Origin: Corynebacterium afermentans subsp. afermentans
GTDB lineage: Bacteria > Actinomycetota > Actinomycetes > Mycobacteriales > Mycobacteriaceae
Length of the DNA: 64,000 nucleotides
Reading direction: 5' to 3'
NCBI RefSeq assembly: GCF_030408355.1
Contig: NZ_CP046606.1
Span: 62,001 to 126,000 of the forward strand
This document shows positions 11,198 to 34,052 of the stretch, piece after piece. Below the pieces are notes generated by a model that was not told where the DNA came from, did no database searches, and saw only the letters and a program-made list of their open reading frames with translations. A program made the position numbers and the translations under genes. The first letter of the stretch is position 1. Each line of letters opens with the position of its first letter.

Positions 11198-13315
11198 GTG
11201 GCCGGCACTTTCGACCCCAACGGTCTAAAGAAGTACCTCAGCAATTCATCGGTGGCGCAAAAATGGAACAAAGTCGTCGCAGCCGTCGCGCAAGACGATG
11301 AGGCGGCGGTGGATTCCGCGCTGGTAGATGCCGGAATCCACGAGCTGTTCCAATTCGACACCGTCCCCGCCGGGCGCGAGGTGCTGCAGCAGCGTTTCGA
11401 CGAGCTCCGCAACGCCACCACCAAACAGCTGCGCCACGCCCGCCTGGGCAGCAACGCCGAGGCGGTGCGCGCCGGGCTGGAAAAGCTTGCCGCGGCGGGC
11501 ACGAACATCAACCCGACCATGTCCAGCGTGTGGCAGCGCTACTTCCACCGCCTCACTGCGCACGAGGCGGAGAAGATTGAGCGCGTGACTTCCCAGGTGC
11601 TCGCATCCGCAGGCCCGGTTGGCGCGGTGGAGGCGCAGGACCTCACGCGGCGTTTGGACGGCATGCAGCTGAGCGAATCCGGCAAGCAGTCCGTGATTGC
11701 CGCCCTGCAGGACAAGGACGTGCGCGTGGTGGAGGCGCCTGCGCCGGACGTGATGGCGAAAATTGAGCACGCCACCGCGAAAAATATCGTCGCGCTGGTG
11801 CGCCCGCGCCCGTGGCTGGACAACGAGGACCTGGGCTACTCCGCGTTCAAGGCACAGCCGGAGGGCCAGGCGCCGGTCAAGCGCGTGGAGCTGGAAGACG
11901 CGATCTCGTTTTACGATTCACGCAACCAGCAGGCCAACAAGGACGCCGCGATCAAGCTGCTCAGTCTGTGCGACACGGATGCCCAGCTTCACGACGTCAT
12001 CCTGGCCTACCACCTGCACAAAGTGAACCAGGCGCGCCTGACATCCTTCCCGGAGCCGGTGGTGGACCAGTTCGTGCTCAACGGCCTGGACAAGGAGGAA
12101 GGGGACAAGCTGCTTGGCAGCGGCGGCAGCACCGTAGCCGCGCGCGTGGATGAGGAAGCGGAGCGCCGCGCCTCCGCCCACCTGGGACTGGAGGAGCAGG
12201 CGTTCGGCGAAGTCGAGCGCATGATGGAGCGGCGCGAGCTGTACGGCGCTTTTGATCGAATGCAATCTATCAACGGCTGGCAAAACCCGGTCAGCGACCT
12301 TGGTAAAAAGGTCTTGCCTGAGATGAGAAATCGACTGTTCCAGCTGAACACCGCAGTGGACAAAGGTCTAGCGGCCGTGAACAATTGGGACCTGCCCACC
12401 GCCGAGCGCGAACTGGAAAACGCCACAAACCTCTCCTACGATGCACCGCAGTTGCAGGACCTGCAGCAAAAAATGGTGCAGCTGCTGCACAACCCGCAAT
12501 ACATCGACCGGGAACTCTCCCGCGTGGGCCTGGACCCGGAAGGGGAGCGGGCCGATGACAGCAACGGGGTGAATAGTCCGCCGTTTTGGTCCTACGTGCT
12601 CAAGATTATGGGGCCGACCGCTGCGGTGGATTATCTCATGTCCAGCACCAGCGACAAGGGCTTCGGTAATTTCATAACTACGTACCTCGGCATGCTGATT
12701 GCTATGGGTCTGCTGTACTGGGTGGCTCGTGCGGGGCTGAAGCGCGGCACGAAGTGGCCACTCGTTGTGGCGGCGATCGTCGTCTTGATCGCACTGTTCT
12801 GCTCCTCGTTCCGGTTCTCCGGCATCGCCAGCACACTGTTCGACTTCGAGTTCCCGCTCTCCGGCATCGCCAGCGCACTGTTCGACTTCGTGTTCCGGCT
12901 GTTCGACTCCGTGTTCCGGCTGTTCGACTTCACGTTCTGGCTCTCCGGCATCGCTGCCGCGGTGTACGCGTTTCGCATTAACCGCTTCCAGGGCCGCCGC
13001 AACCCCGCTTCCAACGCCGAGCGAAAGTCGTTCATCTTCCGTGCCCGCGACCACTTTGCCAACCAGGGCCTGACCCCGCAGAGCGGGTTGATCGTGCGCT
13101 ACATCGGCGACGGCCGAGGCCAGATCATGCTGCCGCCCACCCCGAACAGCGACTTCACCATCAACGGCAAGGTGGAGTTCGCCGGCGACACCCGCACCCC
13201 GAAGCCGGGCGACCTGTACCTCTTCGACGGCGGCGGCAACATCCAAGCAATAGCGAAGTCCGTCGGCGGCGAAAACTCTCTGCTGACGACTAAACCCAAA
13301 GAGCTGACACAGTAA
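11198..13315 (+). CDS. Paralog A: uncharacterised helical protein with C-terminal membrane domain
   Basis: 705 residues, GTG start after AGGGAG. The N-terminal ~310 residues are helical and clearly paralogous to the gene at 15606 (shared FYDSRNxQxNKDA block and preceding FGPxxY/AW segments), ending in a Gly/Ser linker (LLGSGGS). A second helical region (about 330-460) precedes two TM helices (about 490-512 and 520-540), a phenylalanine-rich repeat (537-590) and a soluble C-terminal tail with a short beta-rich domain. First gene of the rightward operon with GrpE-like and Hsp70-like genes. No family name is recognised; a client, scaffold or membrane platform for the Hsp70 is inferred. Confidence 0.75.
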   Translation: MAGTFDPNGLKKYLSNSSVAQKWNKVVAAVAQDDEAAVDSALVDAGIHELFQFDTVPAGREVLQQRFDELRNATTKQLRHARLGSNAEAVRAGLEKLAAAGTNINPTMSSVWQRYFHRLTAHEAEKIERVTSQVLASAGPVGAVEAQDLTRRLDGMQLSESGKQSVIAALQDKDVRVVEAPAPDVMAKIEHATAKNIVALVRPRPWLDNEDLGYSAFKAQPEGQAPVKRVELEDAISFYDSRNQQANKDAAIKLLSLCDTDAQLHDVILAYHLHKVNQARLTSFPEPVVDQFVLNGLDKEEGDKLLGSGGSTVAARVDEEAERRASAHLGLEEQAFGEVERMMERRELYGAFDRMQSINGWQNPVSDLGKKVLPEMRNRLFQLNTAVDKGLAAVNNWDLPTAERELENATNLSYDAPQLQDLQQKMVQLLHNPQYIDRELSRVGLDPEGERADDSNGVNSPPFWSYVLKIMGPTAAVDYLMSSTSDKGFGNFITTYLGMLIAMGLLYWVARAGLKRGTKWPLVVAAIVVLIALFCSSFRFSGIASTLFDFEFPLSGIASALFDFVFRLFDSVFRLFDFTFWLSGIAAAVYAFRINRFQGRRNPASNAERKSFIFRARDHFANQGLTPQSGLIVRYIGDGRGQIMLPPTPNSDFTINGKVEFAGDTRTPKPGDLYLFDGGGNIQAIAKSVGGENSLLTTKPKELTQ
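12800..12970 (+). repeat. Degenerate tandem repeat encoding SGIAS-LFDF units
   Basis: The DNA repeats CTCCGGCATCGCCAGC and CTGTTCGACTTC-type blocks three to five times. Encoded units read SGIAS-LFDF, SGIAS-LFDF, RLFDS, RLFDF, SGIAA. Unit length varies, consistent with slippage-driven expansion inside a hydrophobic region. Confidence 0.75.
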
Positions 13316-13346
13316 CTACAAAGCAGACTTACGGAAGAACCAAACA

Positions 13347-13949
13347 ATGAGCATTCGTCAGTGGGACAATATCGCGGACACAAACGTCGCAGACGAAGTC
13401 CCGGCCCAACCAGCACCCCCTGAGCCGACAGCACCGGCCGCACCCGAGAACCCCAGCACCGAGCTGCGTGAGGTTCGCGAGTCCTTGGACGCCCTGCAAG
13501 CCATGATGGTGCCCAAGCGCCTCATGCAAGACGTCATGGAAGGCCTCGGCGCGCTGAGCGCCCAGGTGGAAAACCAGCAGGCGGAGCGCGCCCAGCTGCA
13601 CGGGGATTTGCAGGAGGCGCGCCGGGACCAGGTGGCGTTGCTCCTGAACCCGGGCGTGAAGCGTCTTTTAGCATTGCAGGCGTTTCTCAACGACCTGCCG
13701 CAAACCCCGGAGCTCGAACACGCAGGCGAGTTGCTCGTGGATGCGATCGAGGCCTTCGGCTACGAGCCCGTCGAGGCCGATCCGGGCACGGACTTTGACA
13801 AGAAAGTGCACAACAGCGTGGGTGTTGAGGAAACTGACGACGAAGCGCTGGACGGCAAAGTAGTCCGTGAGGTCAGTCCCGGCTACATCTACGCCAACGC
13901 GAAGCGGGCAGCGTTTCCCGCTCGTGTCGTAGTGCACAAGTACGTTTAG
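13347..13949 (+). CDS. GrpE-like nucleotide-exchange factor
   Basis: 200 residues. A Pro/Ala-rich N-terminus is followed by a long amphipathic helix (about 35-95) and a C-terminal beta domain. The end carries the GrpE-like pattern: G-Y-x-P-V, DPGTDFDKKVHNSVG, VxREVxPGYIY, then a final hydrophobic strand (PARVVVHKYV). GrpE dimers release ADP from Hsp70; here the partner is surely the Hsp70 encoded 30 bp downstream. It differs from housekeeping GrpE in its N-terminus and in sitting before dnaK with no dnaJ. ATG chosen at 13347; the ribosome binding site is weak (GGAAG). Confidence 0.75.
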   Translation: MSIRQWDNIADTNVADEVPAQPAPPEPTAPAAPENPSTELREVRESLDALQAMMVPKRLMQDVMEGLGALSAQVENQQAERAQLHGDLQEARRDQVALLLNPGVKRLLALQAFLNDLPQTPELEHAGELLVDAIEAFGYEPVEADPGTDFDKKVHNSVGVEETDDEALDGKVVREVSPGYIYANAKRAAFPARVVVHKYV

Positions 13950-13979
13950 TGGTTGGTTTAGCCAAGGGGAAGGAAGAGC

Positions 13980-15602
13980 ATGGCTGACAAGAAGAAAGTC
14001 TTCGGCATCGATCTGGGCACCACCTACTCGGCTGTCGCCCACGTGGACGAGTACGGCGTAGCGCAAGTCATTGAAAACGAGGACGGCCAGCCCACCACGC
14101 CGTCTGTGGTCTACTTCGAGGACGACAGCAGCTTCGTCGTGGGCCAGGAGGCCAAGAACGGCCAGAAGCTGTACCCGGACGACACGGTCTCGTTGATCAA
14201 GCGCAACATGGGCGACCGCATCACCCTGAACTTCCACGGCAACGACTACACCCCGGAATCCATCTCCGCGCTGATCCTGCGCCAGCTGGTTGAGGTGGCG
14301 CAGGAGATGGAAGACGAGGACACCAACGCGGTTGTCATCACCGTCCCGGCGTACTTCGGCACCGTGCAGAAGCAGGCCACTAAGGACGCCGGCGAGATTG
14401 CGGGCCTGGATGTGCGCGGCATCATCGCCGAGCCGGTGGCCGCCGCCCTTTCCGCAGGTTTCGAGCCGGGCGAGCACCAGACCATCTTCGTCTACGACTT
14501 AGGCGGCGGCACCATGGACTGCACCGTCATGGAACTCAACGAAAACGGTGTAGAAGTCCTGGCCACGGACGGCGACCGCAGGCTCGGCGGCGCGGACTGG
14601 GACGCGGAGCTTTTAAACATGGTGGCGGCGAAGTTCATGCTGGAGACCGGCCTGACCGAGGACCCCACCTTCGACGACGAGTTTTACCAAGACCTGCTTT
14701 CCAACGTGGAGCAGGCGAAGATTTCCCTGTCGCGCAAGAAGAAGGTGAAGATCCGCTGCTCCTACCGCAACGAGGCTTCCGCCATGATTGAGGTCACCCG
14801 CGAGGAGTTCGAGGAACGCACCCGCGACAAGGTGGAGCAGACCCTGCGCATCGTGGACCGCACTCTGGAGAAGGCCCGAGAGAAGCGCCCGAACCTGGAG
14901 ATTGAGAAGTACCTGCTGGTCGGCGGTTCCTCGAAGATGCCGATGATCCCGGCGGCGCTGGAGGAGCGCTACGGCTGGGAGCTCACGCCCACCGAGTACG
15001 ACCTTGCCGTGGCCAAGGGGGCGGCGATCTACGGCCAGGGCGAGATGGATTTCGCCGTGGACAACGAGGAGGGTACTGACAGCACCGACGCCGCCCCGGA
15101 GCAGAGCTCGAAGCACTTCGTGCTCGGCGGCAGCGCGGGCGGCGCTGCCACCACCCAGACCATCACCAATGTGCTGCCGAAGTCTGTCGGCGTGCTGTTT
15201 TTCGACCCGGAGCGCCAGGAAGAGTACGTCGGCCACATTCTGCACGCGGGCGAGTCTTTGCCTGCCGAGGGCACCACGCAGGCGAGGACGGTGCAGGACG
15301 GGACGACGTCGTTACGCTTCCGCATCTTCGAGCAGCTGGGTGAGGTGGAGTCCCGCGACCTTGAGGCAAACGAGGAGATCTCGCCCGAGGGCGGCGCGCT
15401 GCTGGATAACCTGCCGCACTTGCCCGCGCATTCCGAGGTGAACCTGATCATGTCCGTGGACGCGGACGGCATTGTCACCCTGCAGGGCCACGAGCCGAAG
15501 TCCAACCAGTTCTTCCGCCTGGAGGCGCAGGTCTCCGCGCTGGACAAGGAAGAGGTCGCCGCCGCGAAGCAGCAGGTTGTCCTCATGATGCGCGGGGACT
15601 AG
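13980..15602 (+). CDS. Hsp70-family ATPase lacking the C-terminal lid
   Basis: 540 residues against about 610-640 for DnaK. The nucleotide-binding domain is intact: GIDLGTTYSAV (phosphate 1, residues 9-19), DLGGGTMDCTV (phosphate 2, near 175), VGGSSKMPMI (adenosine loop, near 315). After an acidic linker (~360-380) comes a recognisable substrate-binding beta domain (TNVLPKSVGV, GESLPAEGT). The alpha-helical lid is missing: the protein stops ~25 residues after the beta domain. Strong RBS (GGGGAAGGA). It is therefore an HscC-like or accessory Hsp70 dedicated to this locus rather than the housekeeping DnaK. Confidence 0.9.
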   Translation: MADKKKVFGIDLGTTYSAVAHVDEYGVAQVIENEDGQPTTPSVVYFEDDSSFVVGQEAKNGQKLYPDDTVSLIKRNMGDRITLNFHGNDYTPESISALILRQLVEVAQEMEDEDTNAVVITVPAYFGTVQKQATKDAGEIAGLDVRGIIAEPVAAALSAGFEPGEHQTIFVYDLGGGTMDCTVMELNENGVEVLATDGDRRLGGADWDAELLNMVAAKFMLETGLTEDPTFDDEFYQDLLSNVEQAKISLSRKKKVKIRCSYRNEASAMIEVTREEFEERTRDKVEQTLRIVDRTLEKAREKRPNLEIEKYLLVGGSSKMPMIPAALEERYGWELTPTEYDLAVAKGAAIYGQGEMDFAVDNEEGTDSTDAAPEQSSKHFVLGGSAGGAATTQTITNVLPKSVGVLFFDPERQEEYVGHILHAGESLPAEGTTQARTVQDGTTSLRFRIFEQLGEVESRDLEANEEISPEGGALLDNLPHLPAHSEVNLIMSVDADGIVTLQGHEPKSNQFFRLEAQVSALDKEEVAAAKQQVVLMMRGD

Positions 15603-15605
15603 GAA

Positions 15606-17795
15606 ATGTCGCTCGCCCCCTTCGACCAAAGCCGAATTGCCAGCTACGCCTCGCGCCCCGACATCGCGCGGATGTGGGACGGAATCCAGCGCGTCCAGGG
15701 TAGCGAGTTGGAGCGATTGCTTATCGACGCCCACCTGCACGACCTGCTCCAAATCACCGCAATGCCGGCGAACTCCGCCGAGGTGGGCGAGCGTGTCCGC
15801 GAAGTGGCGAATGTGCTGGCCAAGCGTCGCAACCGCCAGCCTTTCGACGCCATCCGCGCCGGCCTCGAGCGCCTGGACCGCGAGACGATGCAGTTCAACC
15901 CCTCTAACCTGTCCTTTTGGGGCTGGTACCTGCCGCTGCAGGCGGAGCAGGCGAAGCAGCGCAACGCCGGCATCGTCGACGCGATCGTGGCGCACGCGGG
16001 TGCCCGTGGCGCGATCACGGACGCTGAGCTGCGCAAACGCCTGACGCGCTACCGCCTCACGGACGCTGAGCTGGACCAGGTGGCGCAGGAACTTGCCGGT
16101 AGCGGTATTGACGTGGTGCGTGAGCTGCGCAGCGACGTCACCCGGCTGATCGACACCGCCACCGCTCCCAACCTCATCGCCCTGTTACAGCCCAAGGCGT
16201 GGCAGGACGGCGCCGAATACTCGGCTTACGACGCCGCAATCACCGGCCGTGTCCCCGTCACCTTGGCGGATGCGGAGCAGGCGATCGCGTTTTACGACTC
16301 GCGCAACGACCAGCGAAACAAAGACGCCGTGGTCAAAGTCGCCGCGGCCGCCCAGTCTGACCAGGAGCTTCGCGACCTTGTGCTGGCTTACCACTTAGAG
16401 CGGATGACCAGCGAGGAGCACATCCCCGCCGAGGTCGCCCGCGGCTTCGTCAACGCGGGCCTTAGTCCCGCCGAGGCGACGAAGCTGCAAGGCGGTGGCG
16501 GTGGTTCCAGCGTCCAGGTCTCTGGGGGCGCTGTTGCTGGTTCCGAGCGCGAACACAAGATCTACCAGGATATTGAGTCCTTGCTGGAGGAAGGCCAGCT
16601 TCGCGCCGCGCTGGTCGAGCATGATCGGGTTGTTGCCACTGTGGGCAAGCCTAATGGTGACTATGCCAAGGATGTCGTGTTACTTCTCCTTGGAAAAACG
16701 CGTCGTTTCGAGGATCTTGTCGCTGAGACAAGGAGCCACCTGAAGGAGAAGAACCTTTCTGCGGCACAGGTAAGTCTTCAAGCGGCGGAAAACATTGGGG
16801 CGGACAGGCCCGAGCTGAGGTCGTTGCGTGAAACCGTCGGACGTGGCATGCGTGCGTTGGAATTCGATCGAGCAGACCAGGATTATTACAGTCCGGCGCT
16901 CGACGCAATTAATAACAAGGACCTGTCAAAGGCACGCAACATACTCGAAGTAGCGAAAACCAACGGTGCTCCCTCTACTTCTTTGGGTGGCACAGTCCTT
17001 GATTATTATCAGACCGCAAGCAGAGACGCAGCCGAAGCGCACGCGCGGATCCTTGACGGCTTACAGAAGCGCGACTTTTGGCGTGCTTTTGATGGGGTCG
17101 AAATGCTGGAAGCAGTCGATCTCACCAGCACTGACTTGGCAGGACTAAGAGGTCGTGTTGACGACTTGGGACGTGATGAAGACGTCATCCGGGATGCGAT
17201 TTTCGATCAAGGTCTGGGAGAACGCACAGTTGCAGTTCGAGCTCAGGCATTAGCTCCCGCAGAGGCCGGCCCTTTACTCTATTTATTGACGTTTTTCCCT
17301 CTGGGATTGCTGGTAGACCTTTGGCGCACCGAAAGCTTCAGCAGTCCACTTGCCCCCGCAATCGCGGCCGTGGGGGTTTGGTTCGTGCAAGCCTTAGTGG
17401 CGTGGAATCTTTCTACTCGCGGCATCGCAATATCTATTCTGGCGTTCTTAATTAGTTTGGTGCTTTGGATTGGGCTTGCGCTTGATGGGTTCTACTTCAC
17501 GGCAATTGCCACAGTACTCCTATACGCGAGCGGCGCTGCAATGAGAGAGAACCACGATACCGCCAATGAACTGGAAGACTTCGTTGCGGGCCGTGAATCT
17601 CTCGTACAACAACTACGCAATGATGGCCTAGCTGGCACCACACTAGAGCTACGAGGAGAATCATTCCGACTGGGTAAATCGGAGGGCCCGGACCTCGACA
17701 GCGTCGCGGGCCGGGTAATCGTTCGAAATGCTCAGGGGAAACGAGTAAGCACTATTGACCTTGCCTCCGCCAAGGGACAGGGGGCGCAAAAATGA
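15606..17795 (+). CDS. Paralog B: uncharacterised helical protein with C-terminal membrane domain
   Basis: 729 residues, starting 3 bp after the Hsp70 stop. Residues 1-300 match paralog A at 11198 (same order of motifs, YDSRNDQRNKDA), then a Gly-rich linker (QGGGGGSSVQVSGG), a coiled/TPR-like helical region (~325-540), three or four TM helices (~555-645) and a soluble tail (~650-729). Base composition drops from GC-rich to near 55% within the gene after about nt 16,600, with rarer codons. The second half therefore looks older or foreign relative to the first. Function unknown; it probably forms a membrane-bound partner with paralog A. Confidence 0.75.
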   Translation: MSLAPFDQSRIASYASRPDIARMWDGIQRVQGSELERLLIDAHLHDLLQITAMPANSAEVGERVREVANVLAKRRNRQPFDAIRAGLERLDRETMQFNPSNLSFWGWYLPLQAEQAKQRNAGIVDAIVAHAGARGAITDAELRKRLTRYRLTDAELDQVAQELAGSGIDVVRELRSDVTRLIDTATAPNLIALLQPKAWQDGAEYSAYDAAITGRVPVTLADAEQAIAFYDSRNDQRNKDAVVKVAAAAQSDQELRDLVLAYHLERMTSEEHIPAEVARGFVNAGLSPAEATKLQGGGGGSSVQVSGGAVAGSEREHKIYQDIESLLEEGQLRAALVEHDRVVATVGKPNGDYAKDVVLLLLGKTRRFEDLVAETRSHLKEKNLSAAQVSLQAAENIGADRPELRSLRETVGRGMRALEFDRADQDYYSPALDAINNKDLSKARNILEVAKTNGAPSTSLGGTVLDYYQTASRDAAEAHARILDGLQKRDFWRAFDGVEMLEAVDLTSTDLAGLRGRVDDLGRDEDVIRDAIFDQGLGERTVAVRAQALAPAEAGPLLYLLTFFPLGLLVDLWRTESFSSPLAPAIAAVGVWFVQALVAWNLSTRGIAISILAFLISLVLWIGLALDGFYFTAIATVLLYASGAAMRENHDTANELEDFVAGRESLVQQLRNDGLAGTTLELRGESFRLGKSEGPDLDSVAGRVIVRNAQGKRVSTIDLASAKGQGAQK

Positions 17796-18556
17796 GAAAG
17801 TGGAACGCTTACATTCGAGCGGTTCTCGCTATAGCTATAGCGGCCTGTGTGCTGAATTCAGCCGTCATTTTCGGCGAGGAGGATTTGGAGCAGGGCGGGC
17901 CACTCGAGCGAGCAATCTTGAGCGGGGACAATTCCCTTGTGGAATATGGTAATCCTCCATATACACCGTGGGAGCTTGAAAGCGGCGAATTTCGCATCGT
18001 GCCGGGCACCGAAGGGATTGCTGCAGATCCGACTTGTGAGGATCGTATCGCCGTTGGCACTCACGTGTCGACGGAAGCTTTTGCTCAACGAGTTAGTCGG
18101 ATAACCGACTCGGAGAGTCTTGTTATGCCCGAACTGGACGGCATGCTCTCAATAGGCATATTAGCGTCACCAGAGGCGGGGTCCAGTAACCCAATTGGTT
18201 CGTACCTCAGCGGGTTAGGTCATGCCTGCAAGGGAGTGGTGATGAACCCTGGCAGTGAAACGCCTTTTACCGGCCTAGCTGTGAGCGAGCACGAGTTTGG
18301 GACAGTGGCGCACACGGAGGCGGGCGATATAGCCGATTATTACTCCGCTTATGCGGTACCGGGCTACATCGTTCTGGTGTACGGCTTTAATACGTCGCTC
18401 GAGTATGTCCGCGAGGTTTCGGCAGCGCAGAGTAAGGCGGTTGAGGAGTCGATTTGGCTCACTCCAGAGGGGCAGACCAGCCCGTGGACCTTTGGAATCG
18501 TGAGCTGGCTGCGTCACTTCATGGGTGACAGGGCGAGCGAAACCGCCTCCGCCTAA
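17792..18556 (+). CDS. Uncharacterised exported or membrane-anchored protein
   Basis: 254 residues. The start overlaps the previous stop (ATGA). A basic N-terminus (MRKWNAYIRA) and a hydrophobic stretch (about 9-30) suggest a signal anchor. The rest is soluble, with four cysteines (C19, C77, C138 approximately) and no recognised domain; a closing amphipathic segment is present. Like the end of paralog B it has unusually low GC for this window. It is the last gene of the rightward operon, overlapping by 4 bp the last gene of the leftward operon. Confidence 0.65.
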   Translation: MRKWNAYIRAVLAIAIAACVLNSAVIFGEEDLEQGGPLERAILSGDNSLVEYGNPPYTPWELESGEFRIVPGTEGIAADPTCEDRIAVGTHVSTEAFAQRVSRITDSESLVMPELDGMLSIGILASPEAGSSNPIGSYLSGLGHACKGVVMNPGSETPFTGLAVSEHEFGTVAHTEAGDIADYYSAYAVPGYIVLVYGFNTSLEYVREVSAAQSKAVEESIWLTPEGQTSPWTFGIVSWLRHFMGDRASETASA

Positions 18557-18864
18557 ACGGCCGGCTCGCCCTCCGCCGGGGCGTCCACGGTGGTGGTCTC
18601 GTCCACGATGCTGGTGGCCACCGTCGTCTCGGGGGCCGTGGTGCCTTCCGGGATGTCCGGCACGGTGTTCCACGGGGCGCTGGTCCACAGCCAGATCATG
18701 CCGGCGACCACCGCGGCGATAGCCAGGATGATGGTCACAATGCCGGTGATGATCGCGGTGCGGCGCTTCTTCGCCCGGCGCTCGCGCTCAGCCAGCGCCT
18801 CCTGCTCGCGCTGGACGTGATCCTGGGAGACCTGCTGCTGCGGGTCAACAAAAGGTGAAGCCAT
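18553..18864 (-). CDS. Small single-TM protein with Thr-rich tail
   Basis: 103 residues: a charged, helical N-terminus (Q/E/R-rich, ending AKKRR), one TM helix (about 37-60), then an extracytoplasmic Pro/Thr/Glu-rich tail. Positive-inside rule gives N-in/C-out. Last gene of the leftward operon, 20 bp behind the GTPase gene. No family recognised; a membrane adaptor for the GTPase is possible. Confidence 0.65.
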   Translation of the reverse strand: MASPFVDPQQQVSQDHVQREQEALAERERRAKKRRTAIITGIVTIILAIAAVVAGMIWLWTSAPWNTVPDIPEGTTAPETTVATSIVDETTTVDAPAEGEPAV

Positions 18865-18884
18865 GATTTCAGTCCTTAATCTTC

Positions 18885-22553: not shown

Positions 22554-22560
22554 GCCCCCA

Positions 22561-24723: not shown

Positions 24724-27323
24724 TAGAAGTCCCCGCCTTCGTAGAATTCAGACAGCTTCTCGGCTGCGCTGGAGGCCGTCGGCTGCGCGGCAGTGGGGGC
24801 GCTGGAGACGAGCTTGATGTCTTCCAGTGACGCACCCGGGCTGCCGGCGTGCAGGGTGATGGAGCTGCTGCTCAGATCCCGGCCGCGGGCAGATTCCGCT
24901 TGCACGGTGGTGTTTTCCACCACGTCGTGCAGGCTCCGGTTCACACCCAGCGGGGTGAGGATGTCCTGGCGGAAGTAGCCCGGGGACTGCAGCTTGTGTC
25001 GCGGCTGCAGCTTGGCCATCACCGTGTCGTCCCCGCGCAGCGCATCCACGACCTCAGCCCAGGTGCGGGTGGAACGGTCCTGGTTGAGGAAGCTCTCGTC
25101 AGACACGCGCGAGGCCAGGTGCGACAGGCTCGACGGGCTACCCAGCACGTTGTCCAGGTCGATCTGCAGCGGGTTAACTGGATCGTTGGCGATGTCGCGC
25201 GCGGCCTGCTCCAGGGTTGTACGCAGCTGCTCGGTGAGCCAACCTTCGTCGAAGAAGCGGCGGCGGTATACAGAGGCGGTGTGGTCGATGTCCTGCTTGT
25301 CCACCTCAACCTCGCCCAGGTTGATCGCCTCAGGCAGCGCGTTGGTGGGCTGCAGCGTCTGGGCGGCTACGTTGGAGATATCGCCGAACGGCTTCTCTAG
25401 CAGCGCACCGTAGAGGTCGGAGACCTTGATGAACTGCGGGTAAGCAACCTCGATGCATCGCAGCGCCACCCGCGCCTCCGCAACGGCGCGCTCGGCGTTC
25501 TCAATCTTCTTCACCTGGTCCAGCCGCACCTTCTGCGTATGGATGGAATGCAACGTGGAAATCAGGATCTGCACCATGTAGAAGATCAGCCACAGGGCGA
25601 ACCAGATGCCGAACATCCAGCCGTAGGTCTTGCTGGAGGCGTTGTTGAGGTTTTCCACCCACTGCCAACGCGGCGCCGCATCACCGGAGTTGCCGATCCA
25701 CCAAGCAATGAGGAACACGGCCAGCGACCAGAACGTCACCCAGCCCAACCAGCGCAAAATGCCGTGCCACGGGGACATCTGGCTCGCCTTGTGTTCTTGC
25801 GCCCGGAGGTGGTTCAGCTCCGCCTGTTTCTGATTGAGAATTGTCTGCTGCTCGTCGTACAGGCCACGCAAACCAGCGCCGACGTTTGCAGCAAACGAGT
25901 GCTGGTGCTTGCGCTGCCAGCGTTCGAAGTTCGCTTTCGCGGTCATGAACTCCGGGTCTGCGGCCTTGGCGTTCAAGTCGCGGTAGACCTCACCCTGACG
26001 CTCTACGTCGTAGGGCGCGACGTTCTCGCTGCCCAGGACCTGACGCACCTTGAGCGTCTCTTGCGGGCCGAATTTCTCGCTCGGGCCCGGGATGGAATCG
26101 CTGGGAGACTGCACGATTGTGAGCCCATCCTGCTTCTGCATCGCGTTGGGGCGCTCACCGCTGGTGCGGTACGGCTTCGCGTCCACCAGACCGGAGGCGA
26201 TACCGGCGTAGTCGCGCCACAGCGGGCGCAGTCCAGCGGTCAGTTCATCGTCGGACTTGCGTACCACGGTGACAGCTTTTTGGCCCTGGTCCTGGGCTAC
26301 GTTGACGCGGCCCACGGTCACGCTGGAGTCGTTGCCGTAAATGCTGGATTGTACTGCGGCGTCTGCAGACGTGGCCAGGTCGGAGCCCAGCTCGGACCAG
26401 AACTCGCCCATCCTGCCAAACAGGTTTTTGGCCCACTGGCCGAAGGCATTGCCCAACGCCTGGCCGCGGGTCTGGCGCTCGTTGCGCTGGACCATGGTCT
26501 CGCGTGGCTTGGTAATCAGGTGGTCGCGCGCATGGGTCTCAATGAACTCCTGCGCCGCGCGCTGCGGCAGCGTGCCTCGCTGCGCGTCGCGGGAGACGTT
26601 CACCGGAGTCTTATTCACCACCACTTGCGGCAGAGGAGTGGTGGACAGATCGAAGATGGCGTTCTGCAGCTCCTGCTGGAACTTCTCACCGGACACGCGC
26701 TGGGTGTAGCAGCGCACCAGGCGTGCAGACGAGTTCGGCTCCAGCTGTGCAACCGGGGCTGCGTCGAAGCCGACCCACAGGCCCGACAGGCTGGCAATGG
26801 AGGTTGCCACCCACAGGGAAAAGGATGGGCCAGCGTTCGTGGAATCGTCCGCCTGGAAGATCGTCGCGCCCGAGTCCGGGGACTTCGAATCCTCCGGCGC
26901 CACCAGCAGGTTGCGGTAGCCGTTGAAGGTCGGCAGCGACTCCTCGTCGAAAGACGCGTTGACCTCCGTGAACATGAGGTTATTGGCGGTGCCCGCGAAG
27001 TCCGCATTCACCGCGCGGAGGCGCTCAGTTACCTCGTTGACGTTCCTGCGGGTAAGCAAGCCAGACTGCTCGCTTTCGCCAATGATGTTGATGCCGTGCA
27101 GCTGCACCGCAGCGCCCTCACGCGCACCAACCGCCTGCTCAAGGCGCATCTGCTGCGGTGCTTCACCACGGCGCACCACCGTGGCCTTCGGGTCGGAGCC
27201 GCTCAAGCCGTCAACGTCGATCCAGATGAAGTCGCGCAACAGGTTCAGCGCGGCCAGGTCTTCGAGCGCCTGGCGTGCCATGCGCGCGTTCGTGCCGCGC
27301 GCCGCAAAAATCGGAAAATCCAT
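24723..27323 (-). CDS. Large membrane protein with two central TM helices
   Basis: 866 residues. The N-terminal ~480 residues are soluble and contain regular alpha/beta-looking segments (MDFPIFAARGTNARMARQAL, FIWIDVDGL); a helical, coiled-coil-like stretch (~440-510) leads into two TM helices (about 520-545 and 565-588), then a second helical stretch and a soluble C-terminal domain. The TM pair suggests both large domains face the cytosol. It follows the tubulin-like gene by 18 bp; the N-terminal domain could be a divergent partner of it. No named family recognised. Confidence 0.7.
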   Translation of the reverse strand: MDFPIFAARGTNARMARQALEDLAALNLLRDFIWIDVDGLSGSDPKATVVRRGEAPQQMRLEQAVGAREGAAVQLHGINIIGESEQSGLLTRRNVNEVTERLRAVNADFAGTANNLMFTEVNASFDEESLPTFNGYRNLLVAPEDSKSPDSGATIFQADDSTNAGPSFSLWVATSIASLSGLWVGFDAAPVAQLEPNSSARLVRCYTQRVSGEKFQQELQNAIFDLSTTPLPQVVVNKTPVNVSRDAQRGTLPQRAAQEFIETHARDHLITKPRETMVQRNERQTRGQALGNAFGQWAKNLFGRMGEFWSELGSDLATSADAAVQSSIYGNDSSVTVGRVNVAQDQGQKAVTVVRKSDDELTAGLRPLWRDYAGIASGLVDAKPYRTSGERPNAMQKQDGLTIVQSPSDSIPGPSEKFGPQETLKVRQVLGSENVAPYDVERQGEVYRDLNAKAADPEFMTAKANFERWQRKHQHSFAANVGAGLRGLYDEQQTILNQKQAELNHLRAQEHKASQMSPWHGILRWLGWVTFWSLAVFLIAWWIGNSGDAAPRWQWVENLNNASSKTYGWMFGIWFALWLIFYMVQILISTLHSIHTQKVRLDQVKKIENAERAVAEARVALRCIEVAYPQFIKVSDLYGALLEKPFGDISNVAAQTLQPTNALPEAINLGEVEVDKQDIDHTASVYRRRFFDEGWLTEQLRTTLEQAARDIANDPVNPLQIDLDNVLGSPSSLSHLASRVSDESFLNQDRSTRTWAEVVDALRGDDTVMAKLQPRHKLQSPGYFRQDILTPLGVNRSLHDVVENTTVQAESARGRDLSSSSITLHAGSPGASLEDIKLVSSAPTAAQPTASSAAEKLSEFYEGGDF

Positions 27324-27341: not shown

Positions 27342-30300
27342 TTAGAAGCCGCCGAAGATGTCGTTGATCTGGCCGTTTGCGGAGCTGGAGCCGCTGGTGT
27401 CGTTAGAATCCAGGTAGTCCAGACCGGTCTCGCCGTACACGGTGTCCTGCTCCGGCGGGCCAGCCTCGTAGGCCTCGCGGATCGCACCGATCAAGTCCTC
27501 GGCCATCTTGAGCACGCCGTTCGCGATGTCGATCATCAGCGGCACACGCATAGCCACGTTGCGGTCGGAGATGTCCGCCAGTTCGCGCTGTTGGCCACCC
27601 GGAGGGGTGGTGGAGGGCAGCCGCTTCGTCGGTACCAGCTGCAGGGCGCGCTTGCCTTCCGCCTGCAGCCACGCAATTGCAGCGTCTCGACGTGCCTCCG
27701 GCGAGACCTCGGGCCCAGTGCCCTGCACGAGCGTGTGCTGGGCCTGTTCGCCGCCGATGCGGATGCCGTCGAAAAGCCACTTGCGCAATAGGTCGTAGCC
27801 GCGCGTAGCGTTGCGGGCAGTCGCGGGCGCGCTTTCGGTAGCGTCCCAGTTGTGGCGCAGCGCGCGGTAGGGGTTCAGCGAGGACAACGCGGGCGACTCG
27901 TCCGCCTTTGCCCACGCCATGGGCAGTGACTCCAGGATGGCCGGCAGCCAGTCGTAGTTCGTGCGCATCTTCGACGGCGGGGTGAGTAGCGGAGTATCGA
28001 AGTCCTCCCAGCTCTGCGTCACCGGATCGAACACGTGGATGCCGTCCTGGCCGGTCGCGCGATTCTTGTCGCCCGGGAAGATAGTGGTGCCGATCAGGCG
28101 GCCCACGTACCAGCCGTTAATCATGGCCTGGCGTTCCGCGTCAGTCAGCGGGGTCGCCGCGTTGATCGGGCGGGCGCGGCGCATCTGCCAGAAGGCCGTG
28201 CGCGCGTTCGGCAGGGTCAGCTTGTCCCACTGGCGCGCTGCGGACGGCAGGATCGAGTCGAATACCACCGGCAGGTAGTTCGGGTAGGAGCCGTAGATGC
28301 TGATCTCGCGCTGTTCACCATTGGTTTGCAGTGCGCCACCGAGCGGGTTTTTCGCGTCGTACTCCGCGTTGGGGTAGCTGCTCTCCACCTTCGTGAGTTT
28401 TTCTGCCATCGCGCTATCGCCCGCGAACGGCACGGTGGAGAAGTTGAACTTGTATTTCGCGTTCGAGTCGTCTGGATACAGTTCCTGCAGCAGGCTGGAG
28501 TTAATCTGTGCCAGCGGCAGCGCCTTCGTCATCGCCTGGGCGAACTTGCCGGCGATATCCTCGCGGCGGGCCGCGCGGGTCGGCTCATCCGGCGCGTCCA
28601 GGATGTAGGAGCGCAGCGAAGTCTCAATGAAGCGGGAGAAGGAGAACCCGGCGCGGCCCACGAATTTGCGGGAGCGGTCCAGCACGTGCTCCGAGCGGAC
28701 CTTCAGTTCCACTTTGCCGTTGGTCTCATTGCGCAGGTCTGCAGAGTCCGGCACGGAGGTCAGTGCACGCGGCACCCACGGCTGCACCAGGGTGAGCAGA
28801 TCACGCGGGGCGTCGTCCGCGTCCGCGTCGGAGCGCCAGTCGCCGGCCACAATCTGGCGGGCGGCTTCCACCAGTGCGTCGTCGAAACGCAGCTGCCGGT
28901 TCTCGTCGGTGATCACGGACTGGATCACGTCTTCCTCGAACTGGCCCGGGTAGTGTTCCGGCTCGGTGATCATGACCTCGTTGGCCGCGTTGCTGAAACG
29001 GTCCGGCACCACGTCGACCTCTTCGCTCGGCCACAGGCGCGGCACGTTCGTCTTCATCTGCGCCACGCCCAAGCTCGGGTCGTTGTCCAAGGTCAGGTCG
29101 TGGTTGAGCTCGCGGTGCGCCGCCTGGATCTCCGAGTCGAAGTCCGCCAGGAAGTAGCGGGCGAAATCCTCCAGCACGTTGCCGGCCAGGCGCATCATGT
29201 TGCCCATGGCGATGTACCAGAGCTGGTCGCGCACGCTGCCGTAGATGCGGTCGAGGTAGCCGTCGCCGACGATCTTGCCGCGCTGGCCGCGGATCTCCGC
29301 GCCGAGCTGGCTGTCTAGGAACAGGCCCTCAGACAGCTGGGTCTGGCGCAGACGCGCCGCGGCGTCGGAGACGTGCTGGCGGATGGTCTTGAGCAGCTTG
29401 GAGCCGAACGCCACGCCGTAGCGGCCGATCTCCACGGAGAGCACCTCGAGCACCTCGCGCTGCAGCTCATCCGCACCAGCCCATTGGTACACGGCGCGGT
29501 AGAGCGGGCCGCTGCCGTTGGTGACACCCTGCACGTCATCTGCCACCAGCTGGCGGTTGCGGTATGCGCTGGACAGGCTGGCCTCCACGTCGTTTGCCCA
29601 CTCCGCGCCCTTGCGGCTTTCCGGAGCCGGGACAACGTTGCTGCTCTTCATCATGTCCACGCGGCTTTGCGCCCACGCCACGGCAGTGTCGCTGAAGCGG
29701 TTGGACGCCCAGGCCTGGTCTGTCTCCGCGGCGTTGGCTGCGGTCTGGCGCTCGTCCGCCGGCAGCGGCAGCGTGTTGGCCAGGCGGCGCTGGATGTTCT
29801 GCCAGGACTTTTCCAGACGCTGGTCCAGCTGGTCGTCGTCGGAATCGACGCTGCCGGTGAACTTGAAACCGTTCTTCAGGGTGTTCACGGCGGAGGACGC
29901 CAAGCGCTGCGCGGCGTACTCGCCGTAGCGGTCGCGTCCCATGGCAAGACGGCCGTAACCGAAGGTGCCCCACGGCACGGAGTCGGAGCTAGCGCCGCCC
30001 AGCCCCCAGCCGTAGTAGTCATGGTCGTAGGACAGGCCACCAGGGTTACCCAGCTGGTACTGAACGAAGTTCTCCATCATGGTGGTGTCGGTGGTCAGGG
30101 CAGCCAGGCCGCGGCCGAGCGCGCGGTACACCGTGGACGGTCCCGCACCTTCAGCGATCGGGACGGCGTTCACGCCGGCGGAGATGCCCACCGGGAATAC
30201 GCGGGACACGAGCGTGTCGTCCAGGTTGCCCTGGTAACCCAAGGCCTCGTACAGCAGCTCGTCGGACTTAGTGCCCTCGCCGAACTGGCCCGCGGCGAGC

Positions 30301-31043
30301 TCGCCGAACATGGCCAGCGCGTTCGGGCTGGTGCCCACAAAGGAATCCGCGGAACCGGCGGTCTTGAACACGTCAGGGGTGACCATAAACAACGAGGAAC
30401 GGCCCTGGTAGTTGCTCAGTTCCAGGCCGGACAGCAGACGGCACACATCCAGCGCCATCGACGCGCCAGCGCCACCGGCCATGGAGGACACCACGAACAC
30501 GATCGGGTCTGCCGCCAGCTCGCCGGTCGCTTCGCCCTGGCCCATTTCGCTGCGGATCGCGTCCAGCTGGGTGGCGGACCGCGGGCTGTACAGGCGATCC
30601 TTCGCCTGCTTGAGCTGGTCTTCCACGTCCGTGAGCTTGTTCAGGATCAGCATGCGGCCCACGCCTCGATACTGGCCCGCACCGGCGTCCACCGGCACAG
30701 TGACTTCCTCCGGGTTCGGGTAGGACCAGGTAGCGATGGAACCCAGCGCGTTGTTGCGGCTGAGCTGCACGGACACCGCGCGGTCCACGAAGGAGTAGTT
30801 AGAAGACGCTCCGGTGGAAATGTACTGGCCGCCTGCGTTGGGGACGTTCGGGATCGCCTTGACCCTCTCCGGCTCGGTGGGCACGTCGATGGAGACGAAC
30901 TGCCACGCGTCCGGCAGTTTGCGGCCGTTGCCCTCAAACCAGACCGGAGCGTTCTCCGCGAGCGTGGTCTTGAGCTGGTCCATCATGTAGGACAGCGACT
31001 TAGCGCCAGATCCGCCACAACCGACAACGAGAACTTTGAACAT
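27342..31043 (-). CDS. Tubulin/FtsZ-superfamily protein (Tubulin_2-like)
   Basis: 1233 residues. It opens with MFKVLVVGCGGSGAKSL, the first Rossmann loop of tubulin-like GTPases, and has VVSSMAGGAGASM at residues 184-196, matching in place and pattern the glycine-rich tubulin signature loop. The remaining ~1000 residues are mostly helical/mixed with no TM segment, far longer than FtsZ (~400). The Tubulin_2 family is known from actinobacteria and cyanobacteria, usually beside vWA proteins, but its function is unknown. Filament formation and GTP hydrolysis are inferred from the fold. It sits between the vWA membrane protein and the two-TM protein in one operon. Confidence 0.8.
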   Translation of the reverse strand: MFKVLVVGCGGSGAKSLSYMMDQLKTTLAENAPVWFEGNGRKLPDAWQFVSIDVPTEPERVKAIPNVPNAGGQYISTGASSNYSFVDRAVSVQLSRNNALGSIATWSYPNPEEVTVPVDAGAGQYRGVGRMLILNKLTDVEDQLKQAKDRLYSPRSATQLDAIRSEMGQGEATGELAADPIVFVVSSMAGGAGASMALDVCRLLSGLELSNYQGRSSLFMVTPDVFKTAGSADSFVGTSPNALAMFGELAAGQFGEGTKSDELLYEALGYQGNLDDTLVSRVFPVGISAGVNAVPIAEGAGPSTVYRALGRGLAALTTDTTMMENFVQYQLGNPGGLSYDHDYYGWGLGGASSDSVPWGTFGYGRLAMGRDRYGEYAAQRLASSAVNTLKNGFKFTGSVDSDDDQLDQRLEKSWQNIQRRLANTLPLPADERQTAANAAETDQAWASNRFSDTAVAWAQSRVDMMKSSNVVPAPESRKGAEWANDVEASLSSAYRNRQLVADDVQGVTNGSGPLYRAVYQWAGADELQREVLEVLSVEIGRYGVAFGSKLLKTIRQHVSDAAARLRQTQLSEGLFLDSQLGAEIRGQRGKIVGDGYLDRIYGSVRDQLWYIAMGNMMRLAGNVLEDFARYFLADFDSEIQAAHRELNHDLTLDNDPSLGVAQMKTNVPRLWPSEEVDVVPDRFSNAANEVMITEPEHYPGQFEEDVIQSVITDENRQLRFDDALVEAARQIVAGDWRSDADADDAPRDLLTLVQPWVPRALTSVPDSADLRNETNGKVELKVRSEHVLDRSRKFVGRAGFSFSRFIETSLRSYILDAPDEPTRAARREDIAGKFAQAMTKALPLAQINSSLLQELYPDDSNAKYKFNFSTVPFAGDSAMAEKLTKVESSYPNAEYDAKNPLGGALQTNGEQREISIYGSYPNYLPVVFDSILPSAARQWDKLTLPNARTAFWQMRRARPINAATPLTDAERQAMINGWYVGRLIGTTIFPGDKNRATGQDGIHVFDPVTQSWEDFDTPLLTPPSKMRTNYDWLPAILESLPMAWAKADESPALSSLNPYRALRHNWDATESAPATARNATRGYDLLRKWLFDGIRIGGEQAQHTLVQGTGPEVSPEARRDAAIAWLQAEGKRALQLVPTKRLPSTTPPGGQQRELADISDRNVAMRVPLMIDIANGVLKMAEDLIGAIREAYEAGPPEQDTVYGETGLDYLDSNDTSGSSSANGQINDIFGGF

Positions 31044-31070: not shown

Positions 31071-33617
31071 TTACTTATCGCTAAACGGGCTGTTACCAGG
31101 CCCGAAGGGGGAATTGGTGTTACCGGGACCGAAGTTCGGGCCGAAGCCCTGCGGCTGCTCCGGCGCTGAAGGTCCAGCAGGCTCAGCAGGTTCAGGCGCT
31201 GCAGGCGCTGCCGGTTCCAGGGACTTCAGCTTTTCAATGCGGCTGAGCATCTCGGTGGAGATCTCGCCTTCCAGGCGGGTCTTCTCCTCCTCGCTCATGG
31301 GCAGGCGCGGCAGCGCGATGACCTCGTAGCGGTCGCCGCCGAGGCCTGCGACCATCCACTCGCCCTGCACCGCCAGCGGCAGCTTCGCCTTGCCCTTGAT
31401 GTGGGCGCCGTCGCCACCGCTTACAGACGGCACGACGTCCGCCACCACCGGCGACGCCGCCAGCGGGTTGGGGTTGCCGTTGCGCACGCTGAACTGGCGG
31501 CCGCCGGCGTTGAAGGAGCGGGTCGGCTCCGGAATCGAGTTGGAGTTGACGTCCAGGATGTTGATGTTCGGCTGCGGTGCGCCGTCGTAGGTGAGGCGAC
31601 CGTTGTGGTCGTCCACCACCATGCGGTAGTAGCCGAAGCGCTGGCGCGGGATGGTACTGGTGATCCAGCGGATCGCGTACAGGATCGCAAGCGGGATCAC
31701 CAGCGCGCCCAAAAGCGCCAGGATGAAGCCGAGGGCGAAGCCGCCCTTGCTCAGCGGCACGGTGTAGGACCCCTCCACCGGCACCGCCACCGACGCCTCG
31801 TCCGCACCGTCCAGGGCTGAGATGCTCAGCGGCACGGAACCGTTGACCAGGCCGTCTGACAGCTCGTTGATAGACAGCGTCACCGGCAGGGTCTTCTCCT
31901 CGCCGGCCTGCACCTCAAGGGCGTTGTCCGGGGAGTTGTGGTCCGAGGCCACCTGCACGGTGCCGATGTTCTCCGGCAACTGCTCAGCGGCGACGGTGGA
32001 GCCTTCCGGCAGCCACACCTTGCCCGGGCCCTTCACCGGGATCTCCGTGGTCACGGTGGTCTCTTCCGCGTTGTAGGCAATGCCGCCGTTGATCTTGGGC
32101 AGGTTCTGCAGGCCCACCGACAGGGCGGAGGCGTTGAGGAACGGGGTGAGCTTGGTGCCCGGCTCGCCCTTCGTGGTCACCGCAGTTTCCACCTCGAGGC
32201 GGCCGAACGCCGGCAGCTTCGCGATCTTCGCGGCCGGGATCGCCGCGGAGCCGGAGGAAAGATCCAGGTTCTCCTCCAGCACCTGCGGCTCCCCGTTCTC
32301 AGGGTGGAACGTCACGCGCGAATTTGCGGTGCCCTGCATGGGGCGGGGGTTTCCGGAGGCGTCTATAAGCTGCAGCTCAATGTCTTGCTCATTGTTGCGC
32401 TCGACGGTGCCTTCCTCGCCACCGCCGACGCGTACCGCAAGGCCCGGCTGCAGTTCAGCGACGGTAAACACGTCCTGACCAGCGGCGTTCGGGTCGATGT
32501 CCGCGAACTTCAGGGCCCAATTGCCGGCCCAAGACTGGCCGTCCGCGAGCGTCATGCGCGCGTTGGTTTTCAGCACCGGATCAGTGATGGTTTCCCACTC
32601 CACCTCGGCGCCCTGGAGGGTGGCGGAGCCGGACTCGCCCAGCTTTAGCTCCTCGCCGTTCGGGGCGGTAAGGGTGAGCACCGCGTTGTCGCCCAGATCC
32701 TCCTGCTCGATTGCGGCGAAGCGCAGCTGGCTGATGGAATCGTCGAGAGCGATGTTGAATGCGTCGTCCGCCTTGGACATCGTGCTCACAGCGTTGCCGG
32801 TGGAAAGGGCGCTGTGGAACGCGGCGAACAGGCCGCCGACATTGGAGGCTTCGAAGAACGCACCGTTCGGTGCTGCGGTGCCGCACGGGCCGCCACCCTG
32901 GGTCAGGGAGCGAAACAGCGAGAAATCGCTGGGCAGGTGGGGCGCGGAAAGGCCAATGCCCACGTTGGTCACTCCGGCGGCGCGGAGGCGGTCCGTCACA
33001 CCGCCGGGACGGCACAGCTCCTCCTCGGCGCCGTCGCGGCCGTCCGCCGCGGTGAGGTCGCCGTCGGTGAATGTGACCACCATGCGGCACGGGTCCTGGC
33101 TGCCGGAGCGGGTCAGGTCCTGGTACGCACCGGACAGGGCGTTGGTGTAGTTGGTGTAGTCCTCGCCCGTGCGTTCTTTGAACGCGGCGATCTCGTCCTT
33201 CGCCTTGGAGGCACTGCCACCGTCCAGGTTGATCCACTCGCCGTACTCGCCGGGAAGGGTGGCGCCGGACTTGTAGTCCTGGCCGAAGCCGGCGATGCGC
33301 ACGTTCACGTCCACGCCGGTGTCTTCCTGGCGAGTGACCAGCTCGTCGATAAAGCTTTGCGCGGCGTCCACGCGGTTGCCCTCAACGTCGGTGCCCGGCT
33401 TGTTCTTGTCCACCTGGCCGTCTTTGGCCTCGTACTCCAGGCTGCCGGATTCGTCCATGAGCAGCACGATGTCGAGGGTGTTCTTCTGCGCCAGGCAGGA
33501 TCCGAGCTGCGGTAGCGAGCTCTCCTGCGCTGGGGCCTGCGCGGTGGCGCCGAGCATGCTCGTGCCCGCCACCAGGGCTGCGGTGGCCGAGGCGGCAAGG
33601 ATGCGGTTGATCTGCAT
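31071..33617 (-). CDS. Exported vWA-domain protein with TM helix and cytosolic tail
   Basis: 848 residues. A Sec signal peptide (1-27, TAQA cleavage region) leads to a vWA domain with an intact MIDAS: DESGS (D55, S57, S59), later FTDGD. Beta-rich domains fill ~300-610, one TM helix lies at about 622-648, and a ~200-residue cytosolic part ends in a Pro/Ala tail with SPFG-SPFS repeats. The topology puts a metal-dependent adhesion-type sensor outside and a signalling tail inside. Clear link between the envelope and the cytosolic tubulin-like/GTPase proteins. 27 bp precede the tubulin-like gene. Confidence 0.85.
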   Translation of the reverse strand: MQINRILAASATAALVAGTSMLGATAQAPAQESSLPQLGSCLAQKNTLDIVLLMDESGSLEYEAKDGQVDKNKPGTDVEGNRVDAAQSFIDELVTRQEDTGVDVNVRIAGFGQDYKSGATLPGEYGEWINLDGGSASKAKDEIAAFKERTGEDYTNYTNALSGAYQDLTRSGSQDPCRMVVTFTDGDLTAADGRDGAEEELCRPGGVTDRLRAAGVTNVGIGLSAPHLPSDFSLFRSLTQGGGPCGTAAPNGAFFEASNVGGLFAAFHSALSTGNAVSTMSKADDAFNIALDDSISQLRFAAIEQEDLGDNAVLTLTAPNGEELKLGESGSATLQGAEVEWETITDPVLKTNARMTLADGQSWAGNWALKFADIDPNAAGQDVFTVAELQPGLAVRVGGGEEGTVERNNEQDIELQLIDASGNPRPMQGTANSRVTFHPENGEPQVLEENLDLSSGSAAIPAAKIAKLPAFGRLEVETAVTTKGEPGTKLTPFLNASALSVGLQNLPKINGGIAYNAEETTVTTEIPVKGPGKVWLPEGSTVAAEQLPENIGTVQVASDHNSPDNALEVQAGEEKTLPVTLSINELSDGLVNGSVPLSISALDGADEASVAVPVEGSYTVPLSKGGFALGFILALLGALVIPLAILYAIRWITSTIPRQRFGYYRMVVDDHNGRLTYDGAPQPNINILDVNSNSIPEPTRSFNAGGRQFSVRNGNPNPLAASPVVADVVPSVSGGDGAHIKGKAKLPLAVQGEWMVAGLGGDRYEVIALPRLPMSEEEKTRLEGEISTEMLSRIEKLKSLEPAAPAAPEPAEPAGPSAPEQPQGFGPNFGPGNTNSPFGPGNSPFSDK

Positions 33618-33635
33618 AGTTATTCTCCCGCTCTC

Positions 33636-34052
33636 CTAGAAGTTCTTGCCCACGTACAGGCCAGCGTGGATGGCGGAGAGCAGCACACCCAAGCCAAGCA
33701 CCACGATGGTGGCCCAGTACAGCGCTTCTTTCCACCCGACGGAGACGAACATGCCGCTCGCGCGGGCGTCGGCGTCACCTTTGAAGTACACGCCGAGTGC
33801 GCCGATGCCCAGCACGCCGGCGAGCACCCAGGCAACCAGCGTCAGTGGCAGGTAGGACGAGTCCGTGGCCGTAGTGGAGGAGAGGAACAAAAAGACGGAG
33901 AGCACAACGCTGATAACCCCCATGACTAGGCTTGGCACCAGGCGGGCAACGGGCGCGGACGTAATGGCCAGCGCCGTCGTGCCGGCTTCGGGGCCGGTGG
34001 GTGCAGGGGGTGCGAAGGGGGACTGTGTGCCGCCGAAAGGTGATTGGGTCAT
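33636..34052 (-). CDS. Small polytopic membrane protein with SPFG N-terminus
   Basis: 138 residues. A cytosolic Pro-rich start with two SPFG-like repeats (QSPFGGTQSPF) is followed by three or four TM helices (about 33-56, 68-90, 108-132). The SPF repeats echo those at the C-terminus of the next protein (SPFGPGNSPFS), so the two may share a binding partner. First gene of the leftward operon; ATG at 34052. Confidence 0.7.
   Translation of the reverse strand: MTQSPFGGTQSPFAPPAPTGPEAGTTALAITSAPVARLVPSLVMGVISVVLSVFLFLSSTTATDSSYLPLTLVAWVLAGVLGIGALGVYFKGDADARASGMFVSVGWKEALYWATIVVLGLGVLLSAIHAGLYVGKNF

Follow-up and report, generated by a model that had tools for sequence, protein, structure and literature searches.

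Convergent Hsp70/GrpE and tubulin/GTPase operons related to two GAP1-N2 themes in Corynebacterium afermentans

The closest described relatives of the locus analysed here are the GAP1-N2/DO-GTPase systems, which, in the part of Kaur et al (2020; PMC7159879) that bears on them, comprise an actinobacterial tubulin theme and an Hsp70/GrpE theme and are read as conflict or containment systems from a domain-network argument. In the corresponding part of an earlier study, membrane remodelling was proposed for operons that join FtsZl1, vWA and GTPase genes (Makarova & Koonin, 2010; PMC2875224). GAP1-N2/DO-GTPase systems appear, in the open-access literature, to be known from comparative genomics only, and our search of that literature found no experiment on any GAP1-N2 system. 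Here, we show from sequence profiles and gene order that a locus at 11198-34052 of a 64,000-nucleotide stretch of Corynebacterium afermentans subsp. afermentans (the window) brings relatives of both themes together: its minus-strand operon belongs to the actinobacterial GAP1-N2/DO-GTPase systems of the tubulin theme, and its plus-strand operon is an Hsp70/GrpE module related to Hsp70-theme systems, the only GAP1 of the genome being that of the tubulin operon. Beyond the domain calls of an initial annotation of this DNA, we find that one protein of canonical Hsp70-theme loci corresponds in its two halves to genes of the two operons, and that the product of a further gene is predicted to have a tubulin-like fold.

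Two convergent operons

The 14 genes form a plus operon, A to E, and a minus operon, N, F, G, H, I, J, K, L and M, which converge on each other so that the stops of E and N overlap by 4 bp. Coordinates and gene counts (five and nine) are those given by the initial annotation, the small gene N (18553-18864) being the one that makes the minus operon nine. The source genome is a single contig of 2.375 Mb.

A, 11198..13315, plus: membrane-anchored helical protein, paralogue of D, two hydrophobic segments
B, 13347..13949, plus: GrpE-like nucleotide-exchange factor (Pfam GrpE 1.9e-7, 31.3 bits, cut-off 25.8)
C, 13980..15602, plus: specialised Hsp70, 540 aa (Pfam Hsp70 1.6e-87)
D, 15606..17795, plus: TPR-like helical repeat protein (AlphaFold2), three hydrophobic segments
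E, 17792..18556, plus: N-terminal transmembrane or signal segment (hydrophobic 6-32), predicted outside domain
N, 18553..18864, minus: small single-transmembrane protein, motif LWTxxPW
F, 18885..19961, minus: DO-GTPase2-type GTPase (Pfam 6.8e-6, 26.3 bits against a cut-off of 27)
G, 19971..20939, minus: cytosolic vWA-like protein (vWA 0.034, below cut-off)
H, 20943..22559, minus: GAP1-N2/GAP1-M protein, partner of F (Pfam 4.5e-11 and 3e-7)
I, 22561..24723, minus: cytosolic FNIII-like scaffold (profile match to the C-terminal half of a C. gallinarum fn3 protein, E 1.1e-8)
J, 24723..27323, minus: membrane-anchored predicted pseudo-tubulin, coiled coil and transmembrane hairpin inserted in the fold
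K, 27342..31043, minus: Tubulin_2 protein, putatively GTP-binding, long C-terminal region (Pfam 1.6e-44, residues 5-386)
L, 31071..33617, minus: predicted exported, membrane-anchored vWA protein (hydrophobic 6-25 and 620-657)
M, 33636..34052, minus: small protein at the head of the minus operon, three hydrophobic segments

The minus operon shares with the tubulin theme, as far as that theme's description in Kaur et al (2020) goes, a DO-GTPase, GAP1-N2/M, one Tubulin_2 protein with a long C-terminal region, a membrane vWA protein and a probable FNIII-type scaffold, all in one operon. K is its single recognisable tubulin and bears the C-terminal extension, with motifs GCGGSGA and SMxGGxGASM invariant in 13/13 homologues, and L is its membrane vWA protein. 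F has the features of the TRAFAC GTPase of GAP1-N2 systems, including the conserved Glu in Walker B: the P-loop GARxSGKS, the Walker B motif DxAGED and a KFD motif are invariant in 13/13 homologues. The GAP1 N2 and M domains are encoded close by in H, G lying between H and F; from the starts of its homologues we place the start of H at 22559 (538 aa), not at the listed 22865. Most of the relatives looked at have an M homologue in this position.

Pfam bears out Hsp70, GrpE, Tubulin_2, GAP1-N2 and GAP1-M, and the weaker DO-GTPase2 and vWA calls draw support from conserved residues. The DO-GTPase2 call for F agrees with the invariant P-loop and Walker B, whereas its Pfam score is slightly below the cut-off, and the PF19993 genome search at E<=0.001 did not pick up F in this genome. 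Both vWA calls are below the Pfam cut-off (VWA_2 0.002 for L, which has DESGS in its sequence); the DxSxS metal-site motif of G is nevertheless invariant in 8/8 homologues, four of which match VWA_2 at E<=0.1. FN3 domains in I are likewise not recognised by Pfam in the window copy, although fn3 matches in 2/15 homologues and the profile of I matches an fn3-bearing protein. In the part of Kaur et al (2020) concerned, the FNIII protein of the tubulin theme is fused to HRDC, whereas 15 members of the I family gave no HRDC match at E<=0.1.

The plus operon is what the window adds to the tubulin theme, again by what the relevant part of Kaur et al (2020) describes. Its Hsp70 comes with a GrpE of its own, as in the Hsp70 theme; Pfam finds neither DO-GTPase nor GAP1 among A-E, nor do these genes include an FNIII region fused to DnaJ or TPR. 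In C the ATPase motifs are in place. The top PDB hit spans residues 5-352, and the hits shown run no further than 351-375. At 540 aa, C is also shorter than the host DnaK, which has about 616 from its aligned start; the substrate part therefore appears divergent and shortened, and a full lid is unlikely. A and D share 32% identity across D residues 5-411. For D, helical repeats and then transmembrane helices are predicted, from an AlphaFold2 model with a mean predicted local distance difference test (pLDDT) score of 71.9 (86-94 per block over residues 361-530) and a predicted template modelling score of only 0.41. Foldseek gave no match for D at E<=0.001; the TPR label is our reading of the helix pairs and of Foldseek rows that include the TPR proteins Ctr9, Naa15, BamD and P58IPK. 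A/D as a degenerate DnaJ-TPR protein was rejected, the profile comparison being negative, and database searches with A/D returned the same 13 proteins from the single sequence and from the alignment.

A canonical protein with counterparts in both operons

Canonical loci of the Hsp70/GrpE theme, as partly set out by Kaur et al (2020), are seen here in C. gallinarum (G109) and two further genomes (G289 and G333). Their Hsp70s are 48-52% identical to C and they contain a helical part homologous to A/D; GrpE is called in G109 and G289, not in G333, where our simple gene caller retained an antisense frame. In these loci, however, a single protein carries the A/D part together with FNIII, and two GTPases and a GAP1 accompany it; the plus operon of the window is without the FNIII part, the GTPases and GAP1, and GAP1-N2 is found in the tubulin operon only.

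The C. gallinarum locus runs GrpE, Hsp70, a 914-aa fn3 protein, DO-GTPase, GAP1-N2 and a second DO-GTPase. On the 914-aa protein the A/D profile matches residues 259-423 (E 5.9e-7, score 62.6) and the I profile residues 509-807 (E 1.1e-8, score 76.4). For comparison, 40 shuffles per profile reached no more than 28.9 and 21.8, the reversed sequence scored 23.8 and 18.0, and none of four control proteins exceeded 21.8. The same fusion occurs in G289 and G333 (A/D E 2e-12 and 1.4e-9; I E 1.6e-8 and 1e-5), so that in 3/3 canonical loci examined the two profiles fall on the N- and C-halves of one protein; since the A/D profile itself led to G289 and G333, independent evidence from these two is confined to Hsp70 and I. 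Both are Tubulin_2-negative and have GAP1-N2 and two DO-GTPase matches beside the fusion, one of each pair below cut-off. Profile comparison of I with A/D gave no relation, and the C. gallinarum fusion protein matched nothing but itself in the protein database.

In the window, A and D are without the FNIII half, which matches the separate gene I in the other operon. The usual inference from such a fusion in canonical loci is that A/D and I should work together, and this would tie the operons to each other.

Distribution and history

The initial annotation had made its case depend on whether the genes recur together. For the minus operon they do: in 73 named loci from a GTPase-profile search, F is found in 73, H in 72, I in 71, J in 68 and K in 66, with all five in 66/73 loci and in 54/55 loci longer than 20 kb, and this F-H-I-J-K operon recurs in Corynebacterium, Rhodococcus, Gordonia, Nocardia, Microlunatus and others. 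Within the genus, Tubulin_2 and GAP1-N2 match the same 73/242 genomes, the lists being compared by eye. The Hsp70 operon, in contrast, is an optional add-on found in 5/242 genomes and in 2/73 named loci, a set in which the flank on that side is sometimes short. The tubulin operon is thus widespread and the Hsp70 operon a rare lodger.

The five module genomes (G000, the window's own, with G139, G154, G183 and G068), which are also rows of the module Hsp70 profile (A2), score above 1000 bits with it. The next score is 619 bits, from C. gallinarum, and genes read as host DnaK reach at most 284 bits over residues 5-352, a few to 414. In all five the module is convergent with the tubulin operon and within about 3 kb of it, and the single GAP1-N2 of each genome lies in the tubulin operon. 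A homologues are present in the four others; G154 is without D, E and N. In G139, 13 genes are 89-99% identical to those of the window (E 98%), N being 100% identical, and G183 has a similar-sized protein at the position of E, matched by size and place only. The LWTxxPW motif of N was found downstream of F in 2/60 loci examined, both with the Hsp70 module, and in G068 too, so that N is seen in Hsp70-bearing loci only. The nearest named record is from Corynebacterium haemomassiliense, with F 99% identical.

As far as the fetched flanks show, the block sits in three chromosomal settings: within the stretches fetched, the window and G139 have several flanking genes in common, G068 and G183 a different three, and G154 none with any of them. 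The far side of the tubulin operon, M included, is outside the G068 stretch, and only 2 kb of it is covered in G183. The module starts about 4 kb (G068) and 10 kb (G183) from host dnaK (L074, L076).

Across 198 genomes of the phylum, the module Hsp70 profile at E<=1e-100 matched the window only. The A/D profile in 249 genomes of the order gave five matches, two in module genomes (G000, G154), two in the canonical loci of G289 and G333 and one of 54 residues in G274. An initial count of six module genomes had included G202, which was dropped for a match of 102 residues (E 1.7e-4) and no other module gene in the stretch fetched. Hsp70 loci about 11 kb from the tubulin operon in G034 and G064 were set aside as well, the same locus being present in G063 and G132 without Tubulin_2. 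A different kind of Hsp70 locus (L184, L185, L187, L188), in four genomes, two of them without Tubulin_2, comprises a weakly B-like gene, an Hsp70, a transmembrane-like protein and a Ser/Thr kinase, with Pfam run on the L184 copies only. Three Corynebacterium genomes (L191, L193, L194) have an Hsp70 of a further sub-family with a DnaJ-TPR-type protein (Pfam on L194 only).

The five module-associated tubulins form one clade (100/99) in a tree of 15 sampled from the 73, in which G183 pairs with G068 (100/100), as it does in the module Hsp70 tree (96/94). A DnaK tree of 20 genomes instead places G183 with G000, G139 and G129 (99/94) and G068 outside them (98/93). Because both operons pair G183 with G068 and DnaK does not, they seem to share a history unlike that of this one host marker. 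The DnaK tree also rejects the five as a clade (approximately unbiased (AU) test, 6e-47), the locus-free G129, G020 and G162 falling among them; loss of the locus would explain this. Module and canonical Hsp70s together form one clade of eight (100/99). A single origin of the module, suggested by our first trees, is weakened by the canonical proteins, which fall between two module subgroups when added; it is not rejected (AU 0.08, 0.15), and two origins are possible. In the tubulin tree, two records, one titled C. vitaeruminis 1285_CVIT and the other C. amycolatum SK46 (L098/L099), carry near-identical tubulins (end branches 0.004 and 0.009), and one title may be wrong.

A candidate second tubulin and readings of the locus

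The membrane-anchored J has the predicted fold of a second tubulin and seems to lack the glycine-rich GTP signature. Its model has a pLDDT of 80.8 and tubulins appear throughout among the structure matches listed, a list in which the absence of other folds carries no weight as evidence. A sequence-profile comparison of J with K gave no relation, whereas the later fold comparison pointed the opposite way; the J profile against the PDB returned a single row (E 0.53), and weak Foldseek matches, the first of them to helical pore-forming-toxin subunits (E 0.0098), were read as a generic coiled coil and rejected. By eye, the N-terminal part of the J consensus has no signature like that of K (GGxGxS). 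The C-terminal part of the family consensus holds a GxGSGSxLD stretch, which in the window copy reads LGSPSSLS. J is 11% identical to BtubA/B of Prosthecobacter and, unlike that heterodimer, has a membrane coiled-coil insertion.

The actinobacterial text of Kaur et al (2020) lists a single tubulin, whereas J appears to be a second. The FtsZl1 operons, in the part of the study that describes them, resemble the window in joining tubulin-superfamily, vWA and divergent GTPase genes with many transmembrane proteins, PF13809 being a candidate equivalent of FtsZl1; that main text has no occurrence of Hsp70, and no second tubulin fold is noticed there (Makarova & Koonin, 2010). A reviewer printed with the paper named the pairing of a cytosolic tubulin with an exported vWA protein as a problem for its model. 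A membrane-anchored pseudo-tubulin, if real, would explain how the two work together, and J would be an unrecognised tubulin-fold family throughout actinobacterial tubulin-theme operons.

How might the parts cooperate? We lean, with modest confidence, towards the two operons forming one chaperone-coupled membrane tubulin switch block, an accessory envelope-stress or anti-invader device and not a housekeeping one; an accessory role is favoured by the patchy distribution. At the inner membrane, J would anchor K polymers or start their growth, L and the small transmembrane proteins could sense the envelope or a ligand, and the F-H GTPase couple may set the threshold. The scaffold I would hold the cytosolic parts, and the Hsp70 C, with its exchange factor B and the membrane TPR-like adaptors A/D, would dock on I, since canonical loci encode A/D and I as a single chain, and there load, reset or dismantle the K/J assembly. 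A more specific proposal is tentative, and we would not expect all of it to hold: an inactive J and an active K would form a membrane-tethered tubulin pair, with a single GTPase-GAP1 couple gating its assembly and a dedicated, shortened Hsp70, which reaches the scaffold via TPR-like membrane adaptors, turning it over. If true, a bacterial tubulin is handled by a purpose-built Hsp70, and two supposedly separate GAP1-N2 themes are merged around one switch. A merged locus ties tubulin and Hsp70 to one switch and one scaffold, and predicts interactions of A/D with I, J with K, and C with A/D. The envelope-associated, nucleotide-driven machine proposed in the initial annotation draws support from transmembrane or signal segments (computed in A, D, E, J, L and M, by eye in N) and from P-loop, tubulin and Hsp70 motifs, but the locus is not one standard 14-gene system.

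Alternatively, the operons could be independent neighbours, an ordinary tubulin-theme GAP1-N2 operon beside a remnant Hsp70-theme locus stripped of GTPase and GAP1. Such independence would suit the 68/73 tubulin-positive genomes without the module, C. gallinarum, where both themes lie on separate contigs, and G154, where D, E and N are missing through loss or were absent from the start. We nevertheless find it improbable: the convergent pair is kept in five genomes and three chromosomal settings despite about 23-29% identity in the fastest genes of the most distant two (54-57% in Hsp70), and with sequences so far apart a decaying remnant should not still have three to five genes intact, or gene N in its company.

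A membrane-remodelling or cell-envelope machine, as in the FtsZl1 reading of Makarova & Koonin (2010), would have Hsp70 as an assembly factor and no conflict role. It accommodates the many transmembrane and exported parts, tubulin/vWA/GTPase operons being so interpreted in that part of their paper, and we regard it as possible without expecting it; Tubulin_2 was not found in 169/242 genomes of the genus and is thus dispensable, and the block branches in an order at odds with the DnaK tree. These same two features, patchy distribution and a branching order unlike that of the host marker, would fit an anti-phage or containment system in which a sensed invader triggers GTPase-gated tubulin/Hsp70 assemblies, as argued from domain networks in the pertinent part of Kaur et al (2020). 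Pfam, however, recognises no effector enzyme in the locus, PADLOC profiles gave no match at E<=0.001 for the nine locus proteins tried, and the open-access literature searched yielded no phage experiment; this reading is rather doubtful to us, if less so than independent neighbours.

Control of the Hsp70 operon by a HAIR box was dismissed, the single match (three mismatches, at 972) being at chance level, as was control by a CIRCE box, which had no match. No promoter or terminator consensus was seen at 10600-11300 and 18500-18950, and no RNA family at gathering score or tRNA within the window. A plasmid location was also rejected, the plasmid collection having no near DNA match to the locus; a 33% identical tubulin is found there on two Rhodococcus plasmids. 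Elsewhere in the window, 75-5378 (plus) encodes a 1767-aa surface-type protein with DUF7507, DUF11 and Ig-like domains and long repeat arrays of 15-nt period. At 36186-37805 (plus), glutaminase, STAS and AHSA1 (Hsp90-activator-like) domains share a single open reading frame, adjoined by a globin/NAD-binding gene at 34956-36134, and the flank at 42879-46539 holds an AMP nucleosidase-type gene and a Sir2-family gene.

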